Below are positions 44,923-47,847 of a stretch of 64,000 nt of DNA, piece after piece (the first letter of the stretch is position 1; every line of letters starts with the position of its first letter). Source of the stretch: Prochlorococcus sp. AG-347-E03 (GTDB lineage Bacteria; Cyanobacteriota; Cyanobacteriia; PCC-6307; Cyanobiaceae); NCBI GenBank assembly GCA_003279115.1, contig QCBG01000002.1, positions 62,001 to 126,000 on the forward strand, given 5' to 3'. Under the pieces are notes generated by a model that saw only the letters and a list, made by a program, of their open reading frames with translations, was not told the origin of the DNA and did not search any database. The translations under genes were made by a program, and so were the position numbers.

Positions 44923-46128
44923 ATGGGAGTCAATAATAAAAACGCCCAAGATAATATCCAACTAAAGGGCAATAAAAAACCTCTTCAGGTACTTCACATA
45001 AGCAAGAAAGATACTCAAAAAAAATCTCAAGGCATAGATAATAAGCAAACCAATTCGCAAGAAGAAATTAAAAAAGAAAATATCGCAAACAAACCTCAAA
45101 TCGTTAAAGATGATTCATTAAAAGAAATTGATGAAAGTAATGAAAACACTAAAGACTTTGATATTTCTCAACAAGATTCAACTCAACAAGACTTAAGCAG
45201 ACCCCTTAATTTTTCTGAGCAAAACACAGATTTTCAATTAGAAAGAACTGTTGATGATTTCGATTTTGATGAAAGTGCTTTTTTGGAGGCTTTAAATGCA
45301 AATGAGCCAATTGGGGCTACAGGAGAAACAATCTCAGGTAAGGTTATAGCAATCGAAAGTGATGGACTATATGTTGACATTGGTGGGAAAGCACCTGGTT
45401 ATATGCCTAAAAAAGAATGTGGTTTGGGTGTCATAACTAACTTTAAAGAAAAATTTTCTATAGGCCTTGAAATGGAAGTTTTGGTTATCAAAGAACAAAA
45501 TGCTGATGGGATGGTAACAGTGAGCGCTCGGGCATTAATTCTTAGACAAAGTTGGGAAAAAGTATCAAGTTCCGCAAAAAATGGAGAATTAATTAACGTT
45601 TTAATTAATGGATTTAACAGAGGTGGTCTTACGTGTGATGTAGATGGATTGAGAGGATTCATCCCAAGATCCCAACTTGAAGATGGTCAAGACTATCAAT
45701 CTTTTGTTGGCAAAACTCTAAAAGTAGCGTTTCTTGAGGTGAATCCAGAATCCAGAAAATTAGTTCTCTCTGAAAAGAAAGCATCAATAGTCTCTAAAAT
45801 TGCAAGTTTAGAATTAGGTCAATTAATTGAAGGAGAAGTTTTAGCAGTAAAACCATATGGCTTCTTTATAGATTTAGGTGGAGCTAGTGGACTTCTTCAT
45901 CAATCCTCACTAACAAATGGATCGATTCGTTCTTTAAGAGAAGTTTTTAGAGAAGGGGAAATGATAAAAGCTTTAATATCTGAAATTGACCTCGAAAAAG
46001 GGCGCATTGGTCTCAATACAGCACTCCTAGAAAACTCTGCAGGAGAATTAATTATTGATAAGCAAAAAGTTATGCAAGAAGCCGCAGAGAGAGCGCTAAA
46101 AACTAAAGCACTCTTCGATAAAAAATAA
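44923..46128 (+). CDS. S1 RNA-binding domain protein (ribosomal protein S1-like)
   Basis: Repeated S1 domains: GETISGKVIAIESDGLYVDIGGKAPGYMPKKE; GQLIEGEVLAVKPYGFFIDLGGASGLLHQSSL. Confidence 0.88.
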   Translation: MGVNNKNAQDNIQLKGNKKPLQVLHISKKDTQKKSQGIDNKQTNSQEEIKKENIANKPQIVKDDSLKEIDESNENTKDFDISQQDSTQQDLSRPLNFSEQNTDFQLERTVDDFDFDESAFLEALNANEPIGATGETISGKVIAIESDGLYVDIGGKAPGYMPKKECGLGVITNFKEKFSIGLEMEVLVIKEQNADGMVTVSARALILRQSWEKVSSSAKNGELINVLINGFNRGGLTCDVDGLRGFIPRSQLEDGQDYQSFVGKTLKVAFLEVNPESRKLVLSEKKASIVSKIASLELGQLIEGEVLAVKPYGFFIDLGGASGLLHQSSLTNGSIRSLREVFREGEMIKALISEIDLEKGRIGLNTALLENSAGELIIDKQKVMQEAAERALKTKALFDKK

Positions 46129-46136
46129 CAAGATAA

Positions 46137-47042
46137 ATGAGCATTAATAAAACAATGGATTCAAGCCTTAAATTAAAAATTTCAGATTGGGAATTAGACT
46201 TCTACTCGAGACCAATCATTGAATCAAATGGAAAAAAAAGGTGGGAGTTAATTATTTGCTCTACAAGAATTTATGAGACAGAAGATATTTTTCTTTGGAA
46301 TAAAAAATGCCCTGCCAATGAAGTAAATTCAGTATGGCTTACAAAGGCACTAAATGAAGCAATTATTGAAGCAAAAAAACAGGGGTGGGAGAAACCTTCA
46401 ATAGTTCGATTCTGGAGGTCATCAATGAAATCGATCATTAAAAAATCCTTGGAGGCCGTAAGTATTGAAGCTCTTGTAAGTAGGAGAACTTACGATTTAT
46501 TAGATAGAATCGAATTTCTTGAGAAAGAGATTTATCCAAAGGAAAAAGGTTATGTAAGAGGTGTATTAGCTCCTACTTTTACTTCTAAAATGGAAAACCC
46601 TCCTACACCTTTACCAGAAGAAGTAAGGGGTGAAGCTTTAACTATCTCTGAAATATCAATTGGAGAATTGAAATCAGCAAAAAATTGGCCTATTGAATTT
46701 GGAGAAATTTTCCCAATTCAACAAGATTTAGACGATAATTATTTAGTTCCAGGATTAAGACTTTTTAGCAAAGATAGATCTTTAGCACTTTCTGCATGGT
46801 TCAGTTGTTTAGAACCTATTAAATTAGTCATCAATAAAAACCAACTCATACTTGAAGCTTCAGAAGACGATAAGTGGCTGGTAACAGATTTGCCAGAAAA
46901 AGATGCAAACATTTTGAGTACTAAGTTTTTAGAAAACAAAAAAAATTCTTTTGATTATCAATTTATTTCCATACAGTCAACGCCATACGTCGAAAAATTT
47001 GCAGGATTCTGGATCTTGAGAGATATTGAATTAATTTCATAA
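46137..47042 (+). CDS. Tab2/Atab2-like RNA-binding protein
   Basis: WELDFYSRPIIESNGKKRWELIICS, RFWRSSMKSIIKKSLEAVSIEALVSRRTYDLLDRI. Confidence 0.8.
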   Translation: MSINKTMDSSLKLKISDWELDFYSRPIIESNGKKRWELIICSTRIYETEDIFLWNKKCPANEVNSVWLTKALNEAIIEAKKQGWEKPSIVRFWRSSMKSIIKKSLEAVSIEALVSRRTYDLLDRIEFLEKEIYPKEKGYVRGVLAPTFTSKMENPPTPLPEEVRGEALTISEISIGELKSAKNWPIEFGEIFPIQQDLDDNYLVPGLRLFSKDRSLALSAWFSCLEPIKLVINKNQLILEASEDDKWLVTDLPEKDANILSTKFLENKKNSFDYQFISIQSTPYVEKFAGFWILRDIELIS

Positions 47043-47064
47043 ATTCAGCTTAGGAGCAGGAACT

Positions 47065-47847
47065 ATTCCATACAAAGAAATTTATTTTTCAAAAGCTGAA
47101 ATTTTTATTCAAAACAAAAAATTTGAGTATTATTCATCACCTATCCTTAGTCAAAATAATTTCAAACATGCATATTTTACGAAGTCAAGCTCTAAGAAAT
47201 ATCTTCAACTATTAGGGAATCACTTTAATGAGAATTACATAAATTGTGTTTCCAATCAAATTCACAGTAATGTAATAGTTTTTGGATCACATTCGGGAGA
47301 AGGCCTTGAGACTGATGCAGATGGTCTTGTTGGTAATAAATGGAATCAAAACTTATGGGTTTATACAGCTGATTGTATGCCAATATTTTTTGCAGATAAA
47401 AGGACAAGAAATGTAGCAACCTTGCATTGTGGAAGAAAAGGTTTAGAAAAAAAAATAATAAAAAATCTGGTTAAAATTTTCGATAATTTAGGGACATCTA
47501 GAGATAACTTACTTGTAGCAATAGGACCAGCGATTTCGAAGGAACATTATCTAGTTGATAAAATGACACTCAAAGAATTTTATGAAAAGACCGAAAACAA
47601 AAAAATAACCGTAAATTTGGCTAAAGCTGAAAAAGATCTTTGTTTTAGTGATTCAAATCACTTCAAAGAGAAAAACTTAAATCAACTTGATCTTAAAAGA
47701 TCTGCTTATAGACAACTTTTGAATGAGAACATTCCCTATACAAATATAGACATCTCAAATTTATGTACATACAAATTAAAAAATGAATTTAATTCCTGGA
47801 GAAGGAGCAAAACATTCTCGAGACAATGGAATTTTATCTGCTCATAG
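47065..47847 (+). CDS. pgeF: Peptidoglycan editing factor PgeF/DUF152 (laccase-domain) protein, putative AUU start
   Basis: Conserved frame open from 47035: NQIHSNVIV, ETDADGLVGN, VYTADCMPIFFAD, TLHCGRKGLEKKI. No ATG/GTG/TTG before 47377; AGGAG at 47052-47056 is 8 nt before ATT 47065. Confidence 0.75.
   Translation: MPYKEIYFSKAEIFIQNKKFEYYSSPILSQNNFKHAYFTKSSSKKYLQLLGNHFNENYINCVSNQIHSNVIVFGSHSGEGLETDADGLVGNKWNQNLWVYTADCMPIFFADKRTRNVATLHCGRKGLEKKIIKNLVKIFDNLGTSRDNLLVAIGPAISKEHYLVDKMTLKEFYEKTENKKITVNLAKAEKDLCFSDSNHFKEKNLNQLDLKRSAYRQLLNENIPYTNIDISNLCTYKLKNEFNSWRRSKTFSRQWNFICS

Follow-up and report, generated by a model that had tools for sequence, protein, structure and literature searches.

The window analysed here, a 64,000 nt stretch of the Prochlorococcus sp. 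AG-347-E03 contig QCBG01000002.1, includes three successive forward strand genes, encoding a probable 30S ribosomal protein S1, a Tab2-like protein and a predicted member of the PgeF (DUF152/YfiH) family (Table 1). The tab2 frame ends with a TAA codon at 47040-47042, while that of pgeF extends from 47035 to 47847 as an open frame of 270 codons; hence the two share a few bases (47035-47042) and differ in phase by one base. When the open reading frames of the window were read, the earliest ATG, GTG or TTG in the pgeF frame was found to be an ATG at 47377, in agreement with the original prediction that no such codon occurs between 47035 and this position. The same prediction assigned initiation to an ATT at 47065, preceded by an AGGAG motif at 47052-47056 with an 8 nt spacer, downstream of the end of tab2 at 47042, and envisaged a protein of about 260 aa. 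These coordinates are all correct, the frame from the ATT consisting of 260 codons plus a stop.

Table 1. Features of the pgeF locus, by position in the window, and of three further genes lacking an apparent canonical start, by position in the locus named
Feature	Position	Strand	Evidence
pgeF (DUF152/YfiH) CDS, from AUU	47065..47847	+	PF02578 and TIGR00726 matches; length equal to that of the sister clade's ATG-started PgeF
ATT, proposed AUU start codon	47065..47067	+	aligned in the same column as the sister clade's ATG/GTG/TTG; ATT/ATC/ATA in 152/153 clade members
AGGAG Shine-Dalgarno sequence, 8 nt 5' of ATT	47052..47056	+	AGGAG <=25 nt upstream of codon 1 in 137/153 clade members
His67 codon (QIHS motif), 5' of first ATG	47263..47265	+	translation
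Cys104 codon (TADC), directly 5' of first ATG	47374..47376	+	translation; by spacing, equivalent of catalytic Cys107 of YfiH (PMC8844914)
Tab2-like upstream gene (tab2), ending 22 nt before ATT	46137..47042	+	PF20429 and PF06485
S1-domain protein, probable 30S ribosomal protein S1, next gene upstream	44923..46128	+	PF00575, three stretches
comB (2-phosphosulfolactate phosphatase family)	L290 3869-4630 (G000:C2:23869-24630)	-	no canonical start; ATT at conserved N-terminus; relatives L301-L350 and L479-L507
recF	L361 18824-19987	+	ATT/ATC at start column; relatives L371-L400, L431-L439, L449-L477
SpoU-type RNA methyltransferase	L283 6676-7542	-	ATA at apparent N-terminus; relatives L401-L430, L440-L448, L508-L536

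PgeF is an enzyme that proofreads the precursors of the peptidoglycan cell wall. The family assignment made in the original prediction is borne out by matches of the product to Pfam PF02578 (E=3.5e-39) and to the PgeF model TIGR00726 (150.3 bits, above the curated cut-off of 141.15), and the protein is accordingly predicted to hydrolyse UDP-MurNAc-L-Ser. Numbering from the ATT as residue 1, Asp86 and Cys104 are separated by 18 residues, the same distance as Asp89 and Cys107, which form part of the catalytic triad of Escherichia coli YfiH (PMC8844914). Both lie upstream of the ATG at 47377, and would be removed by initiation there, much as had been anticipated for the active site.

Such an arrangement is exceptional in this genome. 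Among the 65 long frames in the window, pgeF alone has no canonical start within 30 codons, and in an 862 kb sample of the genome, which included 752 coding-like frames of >=100 aa, no other frame assignable to a family had so long a stretch without a start. The length of this gap, 114 codons, is partly a matter of chance, since a GTG occurs near codon 70-72 in the majority of relatives; what matters is the lack of a start at the conserved N-terminus, rather than the extent of the gap.

Copies of pgeF were gathered from genomes across the genus and the family and reduced to 203 unique complete loci. The copy in the window belongs to a group of 150 unique sequences that, together with three sister sequences (L145-L147), constitutes a monophyletic clade of 153 with a support of 1.0. 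This takes in the cultured isolates MIT 9107 and MIT 9314, both of which carry ATT at codon 1; the agreement of cultured isolates and some 150 distinct sequences rules out an error of sequencing or single-cell assembly. Across the 150 unique members codon 1 is ATT in 142, ATC in four, ATA in three and TTT in one, with the three sister sequences, all ATT, bringing the first of these totals to 145 of 153. ATG was found at this position in none of the 153 aligned sequences. By contrast, in the sister clade, one member of which is a closed 1,657,990 bp genome with a PgeF also 260 aa long, the same alignment column is occupied by ATG, once by GTG (L154) and once by TTG (L234). Nor is a canonical start conserved at any other place in the frame among the relatives: in 138 of the 153 clade members, none is present between the upstream stop and codon +28. 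The alignment proposed in the original prediction as a check therefore supports initiation at the ATT, and a start codon mutation of this strain, which had been raised as an alternative, is rejected, the state being found clade-wide in a gene under purifying selection.

The exceptions within the clade are few. In L117, TTT replaces ATT and a new ATG is found three codons upstream, while in L169 the ribosome-binding site is degraded and an ATG is present seven codons upstream; these putative relocations fit a history in which AUG was lost a single time and the start subsequently moved. L140 and L141, having a GTG three codons upstream of codon 1, are ambiguous. More generally, the few relatives with an in-frame TTG five codons, or GTG three codons, upstream of codon 1 could use these as the start in those strains.

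The putative ribosome-binding site is conserved together with codon 1. AGGAG occurs within 25 nt of codon 1 in 137/153 clade members, with a spacing of exactly 8 nt in 124/153. This genome has few strong Shine-Dalgarno sequences: in a 464 kb sample, AGGAG was in range of only 4 of 477 first canonical starts. An RNA hairpin around the ribosome-binding site, with a z score of -2.5 in this strain, was also considered but not adopted, as one of its stem pairs forms in just 45% of the relatives, among which the candidate structure showed no covariation.

The dN/dS of pgeF is 0.26 in the AUU clade, which indicates a working gene subject to purifying selection; the value for the AUG clade is 0.29. 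Constraint on codons 11-103 matches that on the remainder of the gene (0.22-0.23, against 0.28 elsewhere). Because of these two similarities, neither decay of the gene nor a downstream start fits the data. The latter alternative, under which translation begins at a GTG or TTG, in most relatives around codon 70-72, or at the ATG at 47377 and yields a shortened protein, has in its favour that these are the earliest canonical codons in the frame. However, the downstream GTG and TTG positions are not conserved, the strain in the window has none before 47377, codons 11-103 show the constraint described above and the product would lack the catalytic Asp and Cys; this alternative appears very improbable.

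Still less credible is that pgeF is a decaying gene, whose translation ended with the loss of its start. It was not found in 48 of 266 genomes of the genus (many of these being incomplete, and one 99% complete), and a few Prochlorococcus have broken or partial copies (L252-L254, L258-L260), such that the gene appears to be dispensable in some lineages. Yet besides its AUG-like dN/dS, the frame is intact in 150 distinct sequences, and both the ribosome-binding site and its spacing have been maintained. Equally slight is the likelihood that initiation occurs at another non-canonical codon nearby, such as the ATT/ATA at 47080. This is also an in-frame AUH codon, but it lies 23 nt from the AGGAG motif and several relatives have AAA, ACA, GTA or AAG in its place, which is not so at codon 1. 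Finally, the original prediction allowed for +1 recoding from tab2, and the N-terminus of PgeF might be reached by frameshifting or stop read-through from that gene, as a fused or coupled product, given that the frames overlap by those few bases and are offset by one; this can be practically discounted, however, since in 11 relatives an in-frame stop separates the end of tab2 from codon 1 (in one case just two codons ahead of the ATT), the distance from tab2 to the ATT varies out of frame among relatives and the sister clade carries an AUG of its own there.

Hence, from comparison of these sequences, it is very probable that pgeF is translated from the AUU at 47065, AUG having been lost once in the ancestor of the 153-sequence clade, and retained at the same position by the sister clade, with a strong Shine-Dalgarno sequence compensating for the change. 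The initiator tRNA can pair with AUU, AUC and AUA at their first two bases. Were it indeed to read the AUU of pgeF, pairing with only these two bases, the AGGAG located 8 nt upstream could hold the ribosome in place at this codon. The proposal gains further support from comB, which shows the same switch from ATG to ATT.

To our knowledge, very few bacterial genes are recognised as beginning with codons other than AUG, GUG and UUG. AUU starts are nevertheless already known, as in infC and pcnB of E. coli (PMC1780047, PMC5472188) and cvfC1 of Staphylococcus aureus, and pgeF would add a new and deeply conserved case. It resembles infC and pcnB in that AUU is the sole plausible start, from which low-efficiency initiation is expected, although these are different genes in a different phylum, and infC is autoregulated via IF3. 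The infC of the genome studied here starts with ATG, so an equivalent autoregulation through AUU was rejected. Closer parallels exist with cvfC1 (AUU) and ccpN (AUA) in S. aureus, which have conserved starts, extended Shine-Dalgarno sequences and around 10% of the output of AUG in poor medium (PMC13009471). Like these, pgeF combines a conserved start of the AUU/AUA kind with a Shine-Dalgarno sequence of unusual strength; their starts were established through ribosome profiling and reporters (PMC13009471), whereas that of pgeF is proposed from sequence comparison. Unlike cvfC1 and ccpN, pgeF has an AUG-bearing sister clade that has been preserved. Similarly, sigR of Streptomyces is a conserved gene with a start outside ATG, GTG and TTG, but in this case the codon is GTC and repression by IF3 has been demonstrated experimentally (PMC5472188). 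Weak start codons have been found to be offset by stronger Shine-Dalgarno sequences when switching occurs among AUG, GUG and UUG (PMC5622118), a pattern of compensation that pgeF follows, although here the switch leaves that set altogether. A literature search, incomplete in its coverage, returned no report of such starts in Prochlorococcus.

In vitro, Watson-Crick pairing at the first and second codon positions is the only kind that IF3 accepts, and weak pairs at the third are disfavoured (PMC10158994). Based on this and on the data for AUU and AUA starts in S. aureus, translation of pgeF would be expected to be low, dependent on the ribosome-binding site and perhaps sensitive to IF3, which may limit its initiation; control of pgeF by IF3 is plausible. 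A single T-to-G change would be sufficient to restore AUG, and as this was never seen at codon 1 in the 153 sequences, the weak start must be at least tolerated, or not costly. The AUU start may even be favoured; this stronger claim is weakened by the finding that, at its third base, the ATT is no better conserved than several internal Ile codons, with no special synonymous constraint detected.

A survey of other genes in the 862 kb genome sample found two identified genes resembling pgeF, these being comB and recF. The ATT of comB corresponds to position 1 of the NCBIfam model NF002053, and is present in 30/30 close relatives and in the closed 1,657,990 bp genome of the sister clade. The same column is ATG or GTG in all 27 loci from other genera and ATT in high-light Prochlorococcus. 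A TATAAT box is located approximately 30 nt upstream of comB, and an AAGGA-like motif is often present. In recF, ATT is found in 30/30 close relatives and 9/9 more distant Prochlorococcus, and 27 of 28 loci from other genera, GC-rich ones included, have ATT or ATC, and in several a stop lies one or two codons upstream. The recF of this strain contains A7 and T7 runs near an out-of-frame ATG, making slippage a local alternative.

Two further genes were observed in the course of this survey. In the SpoU-type RNA methyltransferase, ATA stands at the apparent N-terminus in 30/30 close relatives, most of which have no canonical start before codon 14-38; other genera also have an Ile codon there, which may be internal. 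A thioredoxin-like protein (L297 11504-11812, minus strand) is apparently split by an in-frame TAA, representing either a broken gene or a sequencing error.

Together, pgeF, comB and recF point to a set of non-canonical starts that would be missed by gene finders, suggesting that the problem is wider than pgeF; software recognising only three start codons would truncate, or fail to find, conserved genes in these genomes. This multi-gene pattern is a more interesting lead than pgeF alone. A more ambitious hypothesis, which we regard as rather unlikely, is that marine picocyanobacteria maintain genes with AUU, AUC or AUA starts, namely pgeF, comB, recF and perhaps more, as a low-output, IF3-sensitive class for which start codon fidelity would be the shared control. 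If true, such fidelity would jointly govern peptidoglycan proofreading, DNA repair and other functions. Prochlorococcus is the most abundant photosynthetic bacterium in the ocean, and with AUU apparently fixed at pgeF in a species-rich, globally abundant clade, and AUG at the same position in its sister, the cost, benefit and compensation of a weak start codon would be directly comparable between the two.
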